From contig NZ_JARUXC010000002.1 of NCBI RefSeq assembly GCF_030433855.1, positions 62,001-126,000 on the forward strand: DNA of 64,000 bases, read 5' to 3'. Made by a program: the position numbers and the translations under genes. Each line of letters opens with the position of its first letter. Position 1 is the stretch's first letter. The DNA comes from Agreia sp. PsM10 (GTDB taxonomy: Bacteria; Actinomycetota; Actinomycetes; Actinomycetales; Microbacteriaceae). The notes below the pieces were generated by a model. That model worked only from the letters and a program-made list of their open reading frames with translations. It made no database searches and was not told where the DNA came from. This document shows positions 1-53,489 of this stretch, piece after piece.

Positions 1-30
1 CGTGATCGATCCGATGTCGGTGGTCACTGT

Positions 31-1341
31 TTGACTTCTCCTATGACACCAGCCGATATCCCTCCCGAGCAGTCACCATATGTGGTGGCACTCGAGCGAA
101 TAGCCGCCCGTGACAGACAGATAGCCGAGCTGTCTGCGTTGCGGGCCACCGACGTGCACGACGCCTGGCAGCTGCTGCTGGCCGACGCCCCGCACGATCA
201 GTCCACGGCAGGCCCACAGTGGTCGCCGCGACGAGTGGCCGAGGTGGAGTTCTTCACCGAGGTCGCCATGCTCACCCACCGCACCGAGTACCGTGCCCGC
301 ACCCTGGCAGACACCGCGATCGCGTTGGTATCGAAACTCCCGGCATCGTTCGCCGTGCTCGCCGCGGGGGAGATGTCCCAGGAGCATGCGACGGTGATCG
401 CGGTCCACTCCGACGGCTTGGAGGGGGAGGCGCTCGAGAAGTACGACAGCCGCATGGCAAAACTCGCTCCCGCCCTCACCTACAAGCAACTCGAGTACCG
501 CGCGCGTTCGCAGGCCCAGACCGCGAACCCGAAGACGGTGGTCGAGCAGGTTGAGAAGGCAGTCAAGACGAGGCGCGTCACGGTCGACCCAGGCAAGGAT
601 GGCATGGCCTACCTCACCCTGTTCGCCCCGGCCCCTGAGATCTACACGATCGCGAACCGGGCAATGGTGTTGGCGAAGGGTCTGAAAGCGGGCGGTGACC
701 CGCGTAGCATCACCCAACTGCGCGTCGATGTCCTCACCGACCTCACGCTGAACGGGGAACCATCGATCCCGGGTGCAACACAGGGCATCCGGGGCCGGGT
801 GCATGTGATGGTCCCCGCGATGACGCTGCTCGGTGTGGGGGAAGAGCCGGCGATCCTCCGCGGGTACGGCCCGATCGACCCGGTCACCGCGGCACGGCTG
901 ACCGCCGATGCGACCTCGTGGCGGCGCATCCTGACCGACCCGATCACGGGCCGCATCCTGCAGGTGAGCCCAACTGACTACCGGCCGACGCAGGAGATGC
1001 GTGACCACGCCACCCTGGTGCATCCGTACTGCGTGTTCGGCGGCTGCGCCGACGACTCCGTCGGGGCCGACATCGACCACACCGTCGACTTCGCGGCCGC
1101 GGGACTGACTGAAGACGACAACCTCGCTCCGCTCTCGCCCACCCATCACCGGGTGAAGCATCACACCCGGTGGCAGATCGAGCAAGGAGAGAACAACACC
1201 CTCAGCTGGACCTCGCCCGCCGGCCTCGTCTACGTCTTCGAACCCCAAGGCATCATGCGACCCGCCCCCGAAGTGCTTATCGACGCGATGACGAAGACCA
1301 CACCGGGGGAGGCGACCACAGAAGAACCCTGCCCCTTCTGA
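31..1341 (+). CDS. DUF222 / HNH endonuclease domain protein (13E12-like family), possibly 5'-partial
   Basis: Protein of up to 436 aa. The N-terminal two thirds resemble the DUF222 domain seen ahead of HNH nucleases in the actinobacterial 13E12-type repeat family. The C-terminus carries an HNH/McrA-like core: Cys near residue 334, a second Cys shortly after, D-I-D-H at about 347-350 and a His-rich HHRVKHH stretch from about 372, the usual metal-binding beta-beta-alpha arrangement. Starts offered are TTG at 31 or ATG at 43. The frame stays open to base 1, so the real start may lie outside the window. Family members are often multicopy in actinobacterial genomes and their biological role is not established. 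Nothing here shows whether it is active or part of a mobile unit. Confidence 0.85.
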   Translation: MTSPMTPADIPPEQSPYVVALERIAARDRQIAELSALRATDVHDAWQLLLADAPHDQSTAGPQWSPRRVAEVEFFTEVAMLTHRTEYRARTLADTAIALVSKLPASFAVLAAGEMSQEHATVIAVHSDGLEGEALEKYDSRMAKLAPALTYKQLEYRARSQAQTANPKTVVEQVEKAVKTRRVTVDPGKDGMAYLTLFAPAPEIYTIANRAMVLAKGLKAGGDPRSITQLRVDVLTDLTLNGEPSIPGATQGIRGRVHVMVPAMTLLGVGEEPAILRGYGPIDPVTAARLTADATSWRRILTDPITGRILQVSPTDYRPTQEMRDHATLVHPYCVFGGCADDSVGADIDHTVDFAAAGLTEDDNLAPLSPTHHRVKHHTRWQIEQGENNTLSWTSPAGLVYVFEPQGIMRPAPEVLIDAMTKTTPGEATTEEPCPF

Positions 1342-14660: not shown

Positions 14661-15997
14661 CCGATGCGAACCAGCCCGCGACCGATGCCGCGCAGCCCGA
14701 ATACGACTGGCAGGGCTACGCCTTCGACACCCGCCAGGTGCACGCCGGCGAGTACGACGACCTCAACGCCGGAGCCCGCGTCTCGCCCATCGCGATGACC
14801 GCCGGCTACCGCTTCGACTCGTTCGACGACGCCCGTGACAGGTTCTCCGGAGACGCCGACGGACTCATCTACTCCCGACAGCGCAACCCCTCAGGAGCCG
14901 TGGCCGAGAAGCGCATCGCCTCGCTCGAAGGGGGCTCGGAGGCCATCGTCGTCTCGTCGGGGCAGGCTGCGATCACCGCGGCCCTGCTCGCGCTCGCGGA
15001 GAACGGCGAGCGCATCGTGTCGACCGCCAGCATCTACAGCGGAACGCGGGTGCTCTTCGGGCGCAGCTTCGCCCGCTTCGGTGTCTCGGTCGACTACGTG
15101 TGGAACACGGCGGACGACGACGAGTGGGATCGCGTCATCCAGCCGAACACGAAGGCGATCTTCACCGAGACCATCCCCAATCCCAAGAACGACATCGTCG
15201 ACATCGACCAGGTGGCCCGGGTGGCCGCCCGGCACGGCATCCCCCTCGTGGTCGACAACACGATCGCGTCGCCCTACGTGATCCGCCCGATCGAGCACGG
15301 CGCCGCCGTGGTCGTGCACTCGTCGACGAAGTTCCTCTCGGGCCACGGCGCCGGGCTCTCCGGGGCGATCGTCGATGGGGGCACGTTCGACTGGGCCGCC
15401 TCGGAGAGGCGCTATCCGCTGCTGACCGAGCCGCAGACATCCGGTGGCAGATCGCTGCTCGAGCGCTACGGCCGCACCGGCTACGCGCGGCTCGCGCGCG
15501 AGGCCGTGGTCAACGACATCGGGCCGGCGCTGTCGCCCTTCAACTCGTTCCTGCTGCACCAGGGAATAGAGACCCTGTCACTGCGCATGGAACGGCACCT
15601 CGACAGCTCGGTCACGATCGCCCGCTGGCTCGAGCAGCACCCGAAGGTCGAGAGCGTCGACTTCGCCGGGCTGGAATCCAACCCGGCGTACGAGCTGGCG
15701 CAGCGTCTGTACGGTGGCCGCACCGGGTCGGTCTTCGCCGTGACCGTTCGCGGGGGAGCAGCCGGGGCACGGAGCTTCCTCGACGGCCTGCGTGTCATCT
15801 CCCGCATGACGAACATCGGCGACGTGCGGTCGATGGCGCTGCATCCCGCCACGACGACGCACATCTCGTTCACCGAGGAGCTGCGGCAGAGACTGGGAAT
15901 CACCCCGGGGCTCATCAGGCTGTCGGTCGGCATCGAGGACGTGAACGATCTCATCGCCGACCTCGACCAGGCGCTCGCCCGCGTCATCGTTCCCTGA
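14657..15997 (+). CDS. metY: O-acetylhomoserine sulfhydrylase / Cys-Met metabolism PLP enzyme (MetY-like)
   Basis: Cys/Met metabolism gamma-family PLP enzyme of 446 aa. It has the N-terminal DTRQVHAGE motif typical of MetY, SSGQAAITAALLAL in the PLP phosphate region, and the Schiff-base lysine K225 in SSTKFLSGHG. MetY enzymes condense O-acetylhomoserine with sulfide, or with methanethiol to make methionine directly. Coupled to patB by a GTGA overlap, the pair could recycle methanethiol from S-methylated compounds into methionine. A homocysteine gamma-lyase or methionine gamma-lyase role cannot be excluded. The TGA stop is supplied by a dispersed palindromic repeat, giving a C-terminus ending VIVP. 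Confidence 0.85.
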   Translation: MTDANQPATDAAQPEYDWQGYAFDTRQVHAGEYDDLNAGARVSPIAMTAGYRFDSFDDARDRFSGDADGLIYSRQRNPSGAVAEKRIASLEGGSEAIVVSSGQAAITAALLALAENGERIVSTASIYSGTRVLFGRSFARFGVSVDYVWNTADDDEWDRVIQPNTKAIFTETIPNPKNDIVDIDQVARVAARHGIPLVVDNTIASPYVIRPIEHGAAVVVHSSTKFLSGHGAGLSGAIVDGGTFDWAASERRYPLLTEPQTSGGRSLLERYGRTGYARLAREAVVNDIGPALSPFNSFLLHQGIETLSLRMERHLDSSVTIARWLEQHPKVESVDFAGLESNPAYELAQRLYGGRTGSVFAVTVRGGAAGARSFLDGLRVISRMTNIGDVRSMALHPATTTHISFTEELRQRLGITPGLIRLSVGIEDVNDLIADLDQALARVIVP

Positions 15998-16049
15998 GCC
16001 TGTCGAAGGGAACCTCAGCGGACGTGCCCTTCGACGGGCTCAGGGAACG
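15988..16049. repeat. Inverted pair of CGTTCCCTGAGCC-type dispersed repeats
   Basis: A 23-bp copy beginning CGTTCCCTGAGCC and ending CGAAGGG (15988-16010) is followed after 16 nt by its inverse (16027-16049), forming a large hairpin between the convergent metY and ArsR-SRPBCC genes. It holds the metY stop. Related copies lie at 36126-36172, 44637-44682 and 63169-63191. Confidence 0.85.
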
Positions 16050-36125: not shown

Positions 36126-36172
36126 CGTTCCCTGAGCCTGTCGAAGGGGACCTTAGACAAGCTCAGGGAACG
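36126..36172. repeat. Inverted pair of CGTTCCCTGAGCC-type repeats between xylA and xylB
   Basis: A full copy at 36126-36148 faces a variant inverse copy at 36151-36172 (TTCG changed to TTAG), so the hairpin has almost no loop. It lies inside the xylAB operon and could attenuate xylB or stabilise the xylA message. Confidence 0.8.
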
Positions 36173-44636: not shown

Positions 44637-44682
44637 CCCTTCGACAGGCTCAGGGAGCGACACCGTTCCCTGAGCCCGTCGA
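44637..44682. repeat. Inverted pair of dispersed repeats between binding-protein and permease genes
   Basis: A copy in CCCTTCGAC orientation (44637-44659) is followed after 4 nt by a CGTTCCCTGAGCCCGTCGA copy (44664-44682). The orientation is opposite to the other pairs. The hairpin lies 11 nt after the lipoprotein stop and could protect or attenuate the transcript so that binding protein is made in excess over permease. Confidence 0.8.
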
Positions 44683-44723
44683 TGCCCCCCCACTCTTTCC
44701 TCACAGTCGATCGAAGGACTGAC

Positions 44724-49385: not shown

Positions 49386-50491
49386 AGATCGCACGGATCA
49401 GCCTGCACCGCCTCGCGATGCCCCTGGTCAGGCCGTTCGAGACCAGCTTCGGCACCCAGACCGAGCGCGACGTGCTGCTCGTGCACGTCGTCACCTCGGA
49501 CGGCGTCGAGGGCTGGGGAGAGTGCGTGGCGGGGGCGGACCCCGTGTACTCGAGCGAGTACGTCTCCGGCTGCGAGCACGTCATCGAGTACTACCTGGCG
49601 CCCGCCGTGCTGGCCGCGCCCGACATCACGGCCGAGACACTGGATGCGCGACTGCGCTTCGTGGTCGGCCACCGCATGGCGAAGGCCGCCGTCGAGGCGG
49701 CCGTTCTGGACGCCCAGCTGCGCGCATCCGGGCTCTCATTCGGGCGGTACCTCGGCGCCGTGCGCGACGAGGTCGACTGCGGGGTGTCGGTGGGCATCGC
49801 CCCGAGCATCGACGAGTTGCTCGACGAGGTCTCCGGCTATGTCGCCGAGGGGTATCGGCGCATCAAGCTGAAGATCAAGCCGGGGTGGGATCTCGAGCCG
49901 GTCGGTGCGGTGCGCGCTCTGCTCGGCGACGAGGCCCTGCTGCAGGTCGACGCCAACACGGCCTACACCCTCGACGACATCGATCACCTGCGCGAGCTCG
50001 ACGCGTTCGGGCTGCTCCTCATCGAGCAGCCCTTCGTCGAGGAGGACATCGCGGGCCACGCCTTGCTCGCCGCCGCCATCGACACCCCGGTGTGCCTCGA
50101 CGAGTCGATCACGTCTGCCGCCGTCGCGAGCGATGCGATCGATCGCGACGCGACATCCATCGTCAATGTGAAGCCCGGTCGGGTCGGGGGATACCTCGAG
50201 TCCGTGCGCATCCACGACGTGTGCCGTGCCCGCGACGTGCCCGTGTGGTGCGGGGGCATGCTCGAGACGGGACTGGGCAGAGCGGCGAACGTGGCGCTCG
50301 CGGCGCTGCCGGGGTTCACGCAGCCCGGCGACACCTCGGCGTCGAGGCGCTACTACGCAGAAGATCTGACCGAGCCGTTCGAGCTCGTCGACGGGCGCCT
50401 CCGTGTTCCCACGGGCCCGGGAACGGGTGTGACCGTGCGCACCGAGCTCGTGGCCGAGTGGGCGACCCGCCCCCCGATGCTGCTGCGCTGA
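49382..50491 (+). CDS. Enolase-superfamily N-succinylamino acid racemase / o-succinylbenzoate synthase
   Basis: Muconate-lactonising subgroup enzyme of 369 aa. The catalytic set is complete: K162-x-K164, D190 (VDANTAY), E215 (IEQPF), D240 (CLDESI) and K264 (NVKPGRVGG). This numbering is nearly the same as in the Amycolatopsis NSAR/OSBS enzyme. Because no menaquinone genes are nearby and it is coupled (GTGA) to an amino acid dehydrogenase-like gene, an amino acid racemase role is more likely than menaquinone synthesis. It may recycle N-succinyl D-amino acids. Inference from family and context. Confidence 0.85.
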   Translation: MKIARISLHRLAMPLVRPFETSFGTQTERDVLLVHVVTSDGVEGWGECVAGADPVYSSEYVSGCEHVIEYYLAPAVLAAPDITAETLDARLRFVVGHRMAKAAVEAAVLDAQLRASGLSFGRYLGAVRDEVDCGVSVGIAPSIDELLDEVSGYVAEGYRRIKLKIKPGWDLEPVGAVRALLGDEALLQVDANTAYTLDDIDHLRELDAFGLLLIEQPFVEEDIAGHALLAAAIDTPVCLDESITSAAVASDAIDRDATSIVNVKPGRVGGYLESVRIHDVCRARDVPVWCGGMLETGLGRAANVALAALPGFTQPGDTSASRRYYAEDLTEPFELVDGRLRVPTGPGTGVTVRTELVAEWATRPPMLLR

Positions 50492-50519
50492 GCGCGCCGC
50501 CGCCGCCTCTGCGCGACGT

Positions 50520-50577
50520 CGAGTTGCACGAATCTGCCCGCTCGACCGCCTGCCAGGCGGCGGATTCGGGCAACTCG
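50520..50577. repeat. Large palindrome R1, 3' side of the nuclease gene
   Basis: Arms begin CGAGTTGCACGAATC and end GATTCGGGCAACTCG, with an inner hairpin CCGCCT-GCC-AGGCGG. It ends one base before the minus-strand gene's stop codon. Closely related to R2 at 51551-51608; the pair brackets a single gene. Confidence 0.85.
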
Positions 50578-50578
50578 G

Positions 50579-51496
50579 CTACGACCGGGCCCGAATCGAG
50601 GCCGCCAGATCGGCGATGAACTCGTCGGGCGCCGTGAGGTCGTCGGCTGTGTAGCGCTTCGCGTCCCAGCCCATCGTCTTCAGCCTTCTGAATCGAGCGA
50701 TGTCGCGGCGCCACTGCTTCTTGTCGGTGCGGTGGTGGTCACCCTCGTAGTCCATCGAGATCTTCAGGGCGGGGTATGCGAGATCGACGCGCGCCACGAA
50801 GACGCCCCGATCGTCGTATACCTCGTAGTTGGTGACGGGCGTGGGCAGCCCCGCCAGAATGATGGTCACCCGCTGCCATGACTCCATCGGTGACTCGCTG
50901 CCGTCGTCGAGCATCGGAAGTGCCCGAGCGAGAAGCCTGGCACCCCGCCCGGAACCGTGGTTGCCGACGGCGAGAGCGAGACGGGCGAGGTCTGTCCGGG
51001 GGAGGGAGCGGTGGATGAGACGGTCGCCGATCGCTACCAGCGGCGCAAGGGCGAGAACCGCAGCCAGATCGCACCAGGTGCGTTCGGGCGTTGTCGCCCC
51101 GAAGCCGAACCGGGCATCGACATCGCCGGGCGACAGAGTGGCTTGATGCCCGACCACTCCGTGCCGGTGAGGCGCGCGCCGGCCGCGAGGCACCGTCACG
51201 TGCAGAGGTGAGTTCTGCAACTCGGTCGGCAGGGGCAGCCGGTGCAGGGCTGCGGCGGTCGCATGACTGAAGGCCGCCTCGGGAGGAAGGGTCTGTGCCA
51301 GAGCGCGGCACCTCTCTTCGAACACCATCGCAGGCGGAAGACCGTCTTCCCATCCGGCGCGGAGGCGTAGGCCGTGGAACGGCGTCGTCAGATCTCGGGC
51401 GCGGAGGCGCTTGTCCGTGACACCGTTCGCTCGGGCCTCGGCCACCGTGAACGCGCGGTGCGGGAACACGATTCGTTTGGGAGGGACCGGACTCAC
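50579..51496 (-). CDS. Putative nuclease: AbiEi-like HTH plus DUF559/Vsr-like domain
   Basis: Protein of 305 aa. The N-terminus (FPHRAFTVAEARANGVTDKR, then LRARDLTTPFHGLRL) resembles the winged helix of AbiEi-type antitoxins; the middle has an AFSHATAAALHRLPLP block. The C-terminal 110 residues resemble DUF559/Vsr PD-(D/E)xK folds: an early Glu in PMESWQRV, VARVDLAYPALKISMDYEGD, and HHRTDKKQWRRDIARFRRL, then a W-x-x-K-R-Y end. The frame extends upstream into palindrome R2, but GTG 51496 is preferred because the residues before it are encoded by the repeat. It is bracketed by R1 and R2 and has no toxin partner. Function unknown; self-mobilising or anti-phage roles are speculative. Confidence 0.7.
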   Translation of the reverse strand: MSPVPPKRIVFPHRAFTVAEARANGVTDKRLRARDLTTPFHGLRLRAGWEDGLPPAMVFEERCRALAQTLPPEAAFSHATAAALHRLPLPTELQNSPLHVTVPRGRRAPHRHGVVGHQATLSPGDVDARFGFGATTPERTWCDLAAVLALAPLVAIGDRLIHRSLPRTDLARLALAVGNHGSGRGARLLARALPMLDDGSESPMESWQRVTIILAGLPTPVTNYEVYDDRGVFVARVDLAYPALKISMDYEGDHHRTDKKQWRRDIARFRRLKTMGWDAKRYTADDLTAPDEFIADLAASIRARS

Positions 51497-51550
51497 CCGC
51501 TCACTATGCCCACAATCGTGAATGCTCACGGAAGTTGTCCACAGCGTCGC

Positions 51551-51608
51551 CGAGTTGCCCGAATCTGCCGCCTTGTCGCCCGGGAAGGCGGCGGAATGAG
51601 GCAACTCG
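51551..51608. repeat. Large palindrome R2, 5' side of the nuclease gene
   Basis: A 24-nt arm starting CGAGTTGCCCGAATCTGCC pairs with its inverse ending GCAACTCG, with about five mismatches around a 10-nt loop. It is 55 bp upstream of the nuclease start and 43 bp upstream of the HerA-like gene. Confidence 0.85.
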
Positions 51609-51650
51609 ACTCGTCGCTCGGAGCGCGGGCTTCGTCGGTAGAGTCTGTGT

Positions 51651-53489
51651 ATGACGAACGACGACGGTTCTGTTCAGGATGCCGCTGCCGCACTCGCGCA
51701 GGCGAAGGCCGCGGCTGCAGCGGCGCAGGCTGCCGCGGATGCGGCCGAAGCAGCACTCGCCGAAGCGACGCGGCGAGCCGCTGAGGCGGAGGCCGCTGCC
51801 GCGCCGGTCGATCCCCAGCCTGTCGCATCCACGCAGCCCGTCGCGTCCACCCCACCCGTCGCATCCGGCCCTTTGAGCCCGGCGGCGGTCGACGCGGTGC
51901 GGGCGGGCTACGACTTCGCGGGCGAGGCCCTGCAGATGGGGGCGCTCGTCAACGGCGAGGCGCTCGCCGATGTGCAGGTGCGGATCCCGCTCGGCATGGT
52001 CGCGAGGCACGGCCTCGTGGCCGGAGCGACCGGAACAGGCAAGACGAAGACCCTCCAGGGGCTCGCCGAGCAGCTCTCCGCTGCGGGCGTGCCCGTGTTC
52101 GCGGCCGACATCAAAGGCGACCTGTCGGGCATCGCCACGCCGGGCGCATCCAGCGACAAGCTGACCGAGCGCACCCGCGGAATCGGTCAGGACTGGAAGT
52201 CCACCTCCTTCCCCACCGAGTACTTCACCCTCGGCGGCCTCGGCACCGGAGTGCCGATCCGCGCGACTATCACCAGTTTCGGGCCCCTCCTGCTGTCGAA
52301 GGTGCTCGGCCTCAACGAGACGCAGGAGTCGAGTCTCGGGCTGGTGTTCCACTACGCCGACGCGCAGGGCCTGCCGCTGATCGACCTCGCCGACCTGCGT
52401 TCGGTTCTGAGCTATCTGCAGAGCGACGAGGGAAAGGGCGAGCTGAAGGAGCTGGGCGGCCTCGCACCCGCGACCGTGGGCGTGATCCTGCGCGAGCTCA
52501 TCACGTTCTCCGACCAGGGCGCCGACGTCTTCTTCGGGGAGCCCGAGATCGACACGGCCGACTTCCTGCGGGTCGCATCCGACGGTCGCGGCATCGTCAG
52601 CCTGCTCGAGGTGCCGGGGGTGCAGGACAAGCCGGCGCTGTTCTCGACCTTCCTGATGTGGCTGCTCGCCGATCTCATGAACGACCTTCCCGAGGTCGGG
52701 GACATCGACAAGCCGAAACTGGTGTTCTTCTTCGACGAGGCCCATCTGCTGTTCAACGGCGCCTCGAAGGACTTCCTGTCGGCCATCACGCAGACGGTTC
52801 GCCTCATCCGCTCGAAGGGTGTGGGCATCTTCTTCGTGACGCAGACCCCGAAGGACGTTCCGGGCGATGTGCTCGCCCAGCTCGGATCGCGCGTGCAGCA
52901 TCAGCTGAGGGCCCACACCCCCGATGACGCCAAGGCCTTGCGGCAGACCGTCCAGACGTATCCGGTGAGCGAGTACGACCTCGGTGAGGTCCTGCAGAGC
53001 CTGGCCATCGGCGAGGCGATCGTCACGGTCATGAACGAGAAGGGTGCACCCACCCCGGTGGCATGGACGCGGATGCGCGCACCCCAGGGATCGATGGATC
53101 CGACGCCGGCGACCGACATGCAGGCCACCGTGCAGGCGTCGCCGCTGCTCGCGCGCTACGGAACCGCCGTCGACCCCGACTCGGCGAGGGAGATGCTGGC
53201 CCGTCGCCTCGACGCCGCCTCCGCTGCGGCCGCCCAGGCGGAGGCCGCCGAAGCCGCCGCTGCGCAGGCCGCCAAGACCGAGAAGGAGCGACTGGCCGCG
53301 CAGAAGAAGATCGACGCCGAGTACGACCGGATGACCCGCCAGAGTCAGCCTCGCCGCACCACGACGAGATCGTCGTCGACCCGCCGATCGTCGAAGACGC
53401 CCATGGAGCAGGTGCTCGGTTCGCCCGTCACCAAGACCATCCTCACCGAGGTCATGCGCGGCATCTTCGGCAACGCACGACGGCGCTGA
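51651..53489 (+). CDS. HerA-like ATPase, DUF853 family
   Basis: Protein of 612 aa. An Ala-rich coiled-coil leader (about 10-50) precedes a FtsK/HerA-type ATPase with Walker A AGATGTGKTKT (about 124-134) and Walker B VFFFDEAHLLF (about 362-372); then another Ala/Glu-rich coiled coil (about 523-555) and a basic tail. This is the DUF853/YjgR layout, a hexameric motor of unknown function. ATG 51651 starts at the coiled coil. The basic C-terminus may bind nucleic acid. A GNAT gene follows with a one-base overlap. Confidence 0.87.
   Translation: MTNDDGSVQDAAAALAQAKAAAAAAQAAADAAEAALAEATRRAAEAEAAAAPVDPQPVASTQPVASTPPVASGPLSPAAVDAVRAGYDFAGEALQMGALVNGEALADVQVRIPLGMVARHGLVAGATGTGKTKTLQGLAEQLSAAGVPVFAADIKGDLSGIATPGASSDKLTERTRGIGQDWKSTSFPTEYFTLGGLGTGVPIRATITSFGPLLLSKVLGLNETQESSLGLVFHYADAQGLPLIDLADLRSVLSYLQSDEGKGELKELGGLAPATVGVILRELITFSDQGADVFFGEPEIDTADFLRVASDGRGIVSLLEVPGVQDKPALFSTFLMWLLADLMNDLPEVGDIDKPKLVFFFDEAHLLFNGASKDFLSAITQTVRLIRSKGVGIFFVTQTPKDVPGDVLAQLGSRVQHQLRAHTPDDAKALRQTVQTYPVSEYDLGEVLQSLAIGEAIVTVMNEKGAPTPVAWTRMRAPQGSMDPTPATDMQATVQASPLLARYGTAVDPDSAREMLARRLDAASAAAAQAEAAEAAAAQAAKTEKERLAAQKKIDAEYDRMTRQSQPRRTTTRSSSTRRSSKTPMEQVLGSPVTKTILTEVMRGIFGNARRR

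Follow-up and report, generated by a model that had tools for sequence, protein, structure and literature searches.

Does the single nuclease gene that lies between two large, related palindromes in this 64-kb stretch of DNA (the window) belong to a repeat-associated element, or have a gene and two hairpins come together by chance? An earlier note had put forward the first possibility, placing one long hairpin directly beyond the end of the gene and another shortly before its start. Both palindromes are where the note placed them (see the table), at 58 nt each, and both fold into long hairpins as single-stranded DNA (-22.0 kcal/mol and z -5.1 for R1; -21.1 kcal/mol and z -5.9 for R2). None of 200 shuffles was equally good for either palindrome, and the pairing of R1 and R2 exceeds chance. 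R1 ends at 50577, one base from the stop codon (50579-50581, minus strand), and 54 nt separate R2 from the likely start codon; an alternative start at 51529, giving 316 amino acids, is also possible. The 68-nt surroundings of R1 and R2 are 76% identical in direct register. Four hairpins in the whole window have at least 19 of 24 arm positions paired, namely R1, R2, and two of a hairpin repeat of the CCCTGAGCCTGTCGAAGGG type, which occurs at three places. The outer limits of the unit are placed by analogy with the unit copies compared in genomes G092 and G079 (discussed below). Its neighbors are presumably genes for a mandelate-racemase-like protein and a DUF853 protein.

Features of the window unit, a hairpin repeat of the window, and the states of five further sites in the genus (G000 is the genome of the window)
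Feature	Position	Strand	Length	Remarks
Whole unit, palindrome-gene-palindrome	50520..51608	minus	1089 bp	
Palindrome R1, downstream end of unit	50520..50577		58 nt	arms CGAGTTGC...GCAACTCG
Nuclease gene	50579..51496	minus	918 bp	GTG start codon at 51496, likely by alignment
Palindrome R2, upstream end of unit	51551..51608		58 nt	
AbiEi-type DNA-binding module	residues ~16-208			numbering of the 316-aa form
Vsr/EDxHD-like nuclease domain	residues ~211-316			numbering of the 316-aa form
CCCTGAGCCTGTCGAAGGG type hairpin repeat	15988-16049, 36126-36172, 44639-44684			
Site S1 (unit L018)				occupied in G000, G001, G002, G004; empty in G003; ~130 nt of other sequence in G005
Site S2 (L022)				occupied in G000, G002, G003, G004, G006; ~2.6 kb between flanks in G001, G005
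Site S3 (L023)				occupied in G000, G001, G004; empty in G006; apparently empty in G007 (short contig); other sequence, 1.4-1.5 kb, in G002, G003, G005
Site S4 (L024)				occupied in G000, G001, G002, G005; empty in G003, G006; lone palindrome of L025/L098 family, best match 38, in G004
Site S5 (L025)				occupied in G000, G001, G003, G004; other short sequence, 186-356 nt, in G002, G005, G006

A known RNA was rejected as the identity of the feature. Our Rfam search of window positions 50300-51900 returned one match, to mir-1295, which scored 29.9 of 100 bits, under the gathering threshold, and was judged to be due to chance. We also take the arm motif of the palindromes to be unsuited to an integron attC site.

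The nearest named relatives of the window protein are from Agreia sp. Leaf283 (98%) and Agreia Leaf210 (83%). In a structural comparison of its AlphaFold2 model (mean pLDDT 84.9), residues 213-316 matched the catalytic domain of I-Bth0305I (3r3p; Z 12.3, rmsd 2.8, 96/97 aligned), and residues 211-316 matched 3hrl (Z 11.2) and Vsr (1cw0, Z 10.2). The model has the Vsr-like catalytic fold of the EDxHD homing endonucleases. Used by itself, Foldseek found no match to this model with an E-value under 0.001, the best again being 3r3p (9.3e-3). Residues E216, D249, H266, and D276 are invariant among 20 aligned sequences of the subfamily to which the window protein belongs (A1), and the profile alignment puts the histidine one residue away from its position in 3r3p, as compared with the residues that we take to be catalytic in I-Bth0305I.

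Residues 16-208 resemble AbiEi (6y8q, Z 9.3, rmsd 6.2); the similarity of the model to Rv2827c (Z 7.8) may mean little. The AbiEi models of PADLOC match the protein at 2.6e-13, and the AbiEi-like assignment made at the outset is upheld by both profile and fold. Beyond these models, the PADLOC defense families yielded only a weak match to ZorE (E 0.0096). The N-terminal two thirds of the protein are like AbiEi of the AbiE type IV toxin-antitoxin systems, but the protein differs from those systems in having a C-terminal nuclease domain and in being encoded by the single gene of its unit. The nuclease gene fills the unit, and no AbiEii toxin gene was found inside it.

The C-terminal part had been described as a DUF559/Vsr-like nuclease. 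The Vsr-like fold is clear from the structural comparison, but Pfam support is weak, with no DUF559 match among those listed for the window protein. The Pfam family MTES_1575 (PF18741) matches it with an E-value of 4e-4 and 20.7 bits, below the gathering cut-off of 38.2, which was reached by none of ten further proteins. One of ten homologues (L054, 22.5) reached the DUF559 (PF04480) cut-off of 20.6. With E-values up to 0.1 allowed, 17 of the 20 A1 members match MTES_1575, 10 match DUF559, and none matches a Y1 transposase model. The likeness to DUF559 and MTES_1575 Vsr-like proteins consists of these weak to marginal domain matches. According to a passage in PMC3710099, MTES_1575 itself is longer than 2000 residues and combines helicase, Vsr, and HEPN domains. 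NCBIfam offered nothing useful for the proteins compared, and PHROGs gave weak matches only, for one of three proteins. The expectation that the enzyme would be something other than a Y1 tyrosine transposase agrees with the absence of Y1 models from the 20 members and with the two folds, AbiEi and Vsr-like.

We identified nine places homologous to the nuclease gene in the window's own genome. A hairpin scan showed several of them to be bracketed by pairs of other palindromes, as is also the case across the genus. The proteins form two subfamilies, A1, which is Vsr-like, and A2, which carries the motif EEKIRED. The A2 members (L022-L025, L088-L102) have AbiEi_4 matches and palindrome pairs of their own. 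The A1 profile, at E-values up to 1e-10, had matches in 31 of the 40 genomes of the family and, with at most 19 candidates scored per genome, in at least 88 of 118 class genomes and at least 38 of 119 phylum genomes.

From these searches we drew up to 30 loci each at the family, class, and phylum levels, out of longer tables of matches. At 71 of 126 nuclease loci the left and right palindromes are alike (score of at least 20). By set, these are 29 of 53 loci in the genus, 8 of 14 among named GTDB genomes, 14 of 30 in the family, and 20 of 29 in the class. The genus loci are not independent, because orthologous units have common ancestry; the class-level set, which draws a single locus from each genome, comes closest to independence. 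Three of the 126 loci are doubles (L126 = L018, L127 = L036, L144 = L031), and the gene position of one class-level locus (L165) was set wrongly in the scoring, although its true pair was seen in the comparison of units. Leaving these four out gives 68 of 122. The gene position was likewise wrong at the short locus L155, which has no pair. In the 71 paired loci the median unit length is 1161 bp (5-95%: 1076-1300), the median palindrome length is 60.5 nt, and the downstream palindrome starts a median of 2 nt past the stop codon. The two ends are in direct relative orientation in 30 cases and inverted in 14, with 27 undecided.

Several controls bear on these counts. Among 1500 random cross-locus pairings, a null that takes in pairs of related loci, 1.07% scored 20 or more. 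Hairpins with at least 18 of 24 positions paired occur on both sides of the gene, within 400 bp, at 23/53 genus, 10/14 named GTDB, 10/30 family, and 11/29 class loci, and at 2 of 170 control open frames, not all of which are true genes and one of which is that of the window gene itself. A cleaner control, the 79 called ordinary genes of the window's own genome with the window gene skipped, contained no matching pair. At the phylum level, where 27 new loci were examined and four were too short, 9 of 23 usable loci have a matching pair (3 of 4 from the same class and 6 of 19 from other classes), and at 17 of the 23 hairpins of 18/24 are not present on both sides. The earlier note had predicted palindromes around the homologues and an enrichment of such pairs near this gene family. 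The enrichment is evident when the nuclease loci are set against the ordinary genes; flanking by palindromes applies to many homologues in Actinomycetota, but the likeness score gives no matching pair at 55 of the 126 loci.

A single CGAGTTGC palindrome for the whole protein family, as had been imagined, does not exist; the palindromes differ from one protein lineage to the next. In a comparison made without L165, palindrome scores of at least 20 occurred in 1 of 2331 locus pairs whose proteins are less than 50% identical, 3 of 34 at 50-60%, 10 of 11 at 60-80%, and all 39 above 80%. The rank correlation between palindrome likeness and protein identity is modest, at 0.19 over all pairs, yet above all 999 permutations (p 0.001), and 0.12 for pairs below 45% protein identity (p 0.002). 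On the sequences compared, each protein lineage has a palindrome of its own. Both palindromes have changed in step in their two arms between L045 of genome G006, where both ends have GGTTGC/GCAACC, and L018, L043, L044, and L048, which mostly have GGCCGC/GCGGCC.

Because the palindrome sequence is so closely tied to the protein sequence, recognition by the nuclease protein is the simplest cause. The same tie counts against a passenger unit, whose ends would be used by some other enzyme in trans or spread by replication slippage while the nuclease rides along or regulates. We consider a passenger unit quite improbable, although palindromes exist without a close nuclease in genome G150 and endonucleases of Vsr-like fold are not known to move short palindromes alone.

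The palindromes also occur away from the gene. The window's own genome has six copies of GAGTTGC-N42-GCAACTC (56 nt), along with two more degenerate copies on contig C106. Of the six, two bracket the window gene and the other four are solitary. Over the eight genomes of the genus, the pattern GAGTTGC-N37..47-GCAACTC gave 20 matches in five genomes, all of them 56 nt long though 51-61 were permitted, and its backwards control gave one match. In eight genomes of family f19, the strict pattern found 27, 9, 29, 7, 0, 6, 0, and 42 copies, with none for the control. Strict-pattern copies number 6-42 per genome where there are any, and 0-6 in the eight genomes of the genus; looser matching would give more. 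Across 31 distinct copies of 59 nt, pairing at the 12 inner stem positions is intact in 259 of 372 cells (mean 235.5 and maximum 255 in 2000 shuffles), which is only suggestive of a constraint on the hairpin because the 31 copies are related.

The genome with 42 strict palindromes (G150) has no homologue of the nuclease above 30% identity, and G005, with four GAGTTGC copies, has no full-length homologue above 37%. Since both hold copies but no close homologue, the palindromes persist without a close nuclease. The suggestion that copy number would follow the number of nuclease genes fails on the same example of G150. We looked at 20 of the solitary copies in G150 and found nine between convergent genes, seven between tandem genes, two between divergent genes, and two inside called genes. 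This mostly intergenic placement is what would be expected if the palindromes were ordinary terminators between genes, or REP-like repeats, and bracketed the gene by chance. Such repeats are a most improbable explanation of the pairs, which are specific to the protein, place one palindrome upstream of the start codon, match between left and right, and are absent from the 79 control genes.

Genome G159 contains a dispersed repeat (L219, L221-L226, ~1983-2367), mostly about 390 bp long, with several hairpins that include the TTGATCATGGAGAA palindrome. To judge from its make-up, it is a BIME-like composite. A recent burst of the palindrome in G159 was considered and rejected, the seven identical copies being situated inside the longer repeat with other hairpins. 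Because they are so embedded, these copies are no sign of the palindrome moving alone.

Unit boundaries could be seen where one genome has two similar copies. In G092, a Micromonospora-like genome whose genus is a guess, two copies at different places share 90% identity along 1122 alignment columns, and the likeness stops 0-26 nt from the outer palindrome edges. Two copies on different contigs of G079 are 80% identical over 1134 columns and end 4-22 nt from the edges. In both genomes the copies have a complete palindrome on each side, as does the window unit. Because the G092 copies are alike from palindrome to palindrome at different places, the unit is a discrete one of about 1.1 kb. The inner stems of G092 agree at 0.53-0.60 between the copies and at 0.94 and 0.90 within them. 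Over six units, agreement averages 0.78 within and 0.57 between units, in pairs that are not independent and in sets that overlap: two of the six within-unit values (0.66 and 0.65) are lower than the best between-unit value (0.84).

The window site, from the gene ending at 50491 to the gene starting at 51651, is occupied in G000, G003, and G004, although one of the two palindromes in G004 is degenerate (16/24). G002 is empty there, with a bare 32-nt gap, and G006 has a single palindrome, for which the best match (42) is the G003 unit at the same site. Two hairpins in G001, with scores of 24 and 22, resemble the ones of unit L080, and G005 has other repeats, including a copy of the CCCTGAGCCTGTCGAAGGG type hairpin repeat. 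No match for the flanks was found in G007. The states of five more sites are given in the table, in a comparison that leaves out G006 at S1 and G007 at sites other than S3. Between the S5 flanks in G002 (L263), where G000 has the unit, a GATCGAGTAGCCACGCGAGGAACGAGCACGG repeat is present in seven tandem copies. Empty orthologous sites in sister genomes, which the earlier note had called for, are present in G002 (window site), G003 (S1, S4), and G006 (S3, S4). Mobility as a unit is supported. Gains are not told from losses in these data because the tree, which covers seven genomes of the genus, has no root.

The palindrome-gene-palindrome units are apparently a widespread and undescribed mobile family in actinobacteria. 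Within the open-access literature, searched by title and start of abstract, none of the papers listed ties this protein family to palindromes. The original idea of a repeat-associated nuclease-palindrome element is strengthened by the recurring pairs, the empty sites, and the solitary copies, but it has to do without a single common palindrome and without a link to copy number.

The units could instead be modules that serve the host and spread by ordinary recombination, the AbiEi-like part repressing through the upstream palindrome, the nuclease acting in defense, and the palindromes being operators or terminators. The PADLOC and fold matches to AbiEi fit such a role, as does the location of one palindrome upstream of the start and the other just past the stop. 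A host-serving module leaves the solitary copies, the unit limits, and the matching downstream palindrome unexplained, and the weak ZorE match is all that the other defense families add; we think it unlikely.

We favor selfish units of about 1.1-1.2 kb, in which the nuclease would recognize the palindrome at the ends of its own unit and spread by way of break repair, as the probable explanation. The AbiEi-type and Vsr/EDxHD-like protein would bind its cognate palindrome of about 60 bp, most likely as a dimer, and the endonuclease domain would make its cut within the palindrome or next to it. If the break were then repaired from a palindrome-gene-palindrome copy, a bare palindrome would become occupied; if the two ends of a unit recombined, one palindrome would be all that is left. 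We infer the binding, dimerization, cleavage, and spread by break repair, and likewise the direction of each gain or loss. Recognition by the nuclease of its own palindrome would explain the specificity of the palindromes, their length, which is nearly constant at about 60 nt, and the existence of bare copies. Filling and emptying both fit the three site states of occupied, empty, and single palindrome.

It is conceivable, if somewhat doubtful, that the units represent a new mechanistic class of transposable element, in which an AbiEi-aimed Vsr/EDxHD endonuclease is the sole protein needed and also maintains the bare palindromes. Each insertion in such a class would take both ends from one resident palindrome. 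That common source would explain why the ends are alike within a unit and unlike between the near-identical units of G092.

REP sequences with RAYT are the standard example of a palindrome population linked to a domesticated enzyme. As in the REP and RAYT (or TnpA-REP) systems, the palindromes are dispersed, the enzyme gene lies between copies of its own palindrome, and palindrome and enzyme form lineage-specific pairs. The units share with REP/RAYT the occurrence of palindromes both flanking the enzyme gene and alone. They differ in that the enzyme is an AbiEi and Vsr-like nuclease and the palindromes are about 60 nt long, and we have not filed them as REP/RAYT because no Y1 transposase was seen. 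REP copy number is usually over 100 per genome according to PMC2817692, in contrast to the 0-42 strict matches per genome here. REP palindromes carry a GTAG or CGTC tag at one end, according to PMC3733652.

The EDxHD homing endonuclease I-Bth0305I has the closest solved fold to the nuclease domain, but the DNA-binding part of the window protein is AbiEi-like instead. Homing endonucleases usually occupy a split site and do not have a complete palindrome on each side. Insertion in an intron, an intein, or a split site is not what is found here, the window unit being intergenic with a complete palindrome at each end. I-Bth0305I dimerizes on a target of nearly 60 bp, as stated in a review (PMC3943268), and the palindromes of the units, at about 60 nt, are comparable to this target by length.

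Were the units a second such system, built on an unrelated enzyme fold, the logic of palindrome and enzyme would have arisen more than once, and many genes labeled AbiEi-like or DUF559 would gain a function. Because the enzymes come with candidate targets of about 60 bp built in, a family of putative long-specificity nucleases becomes directly testable.

A phage or plasmid origin of the units was rejected. One degenerate pattern found no relative in IMG/VR, 50,697 phage records gave one weak match (coverage 42%), and 72,556 plasmid records gave five matches, all with less than 36% identity. Within the genus, the homologues at L061, L066, L082, and L086 have early stops; because of these, some units seem to decay.
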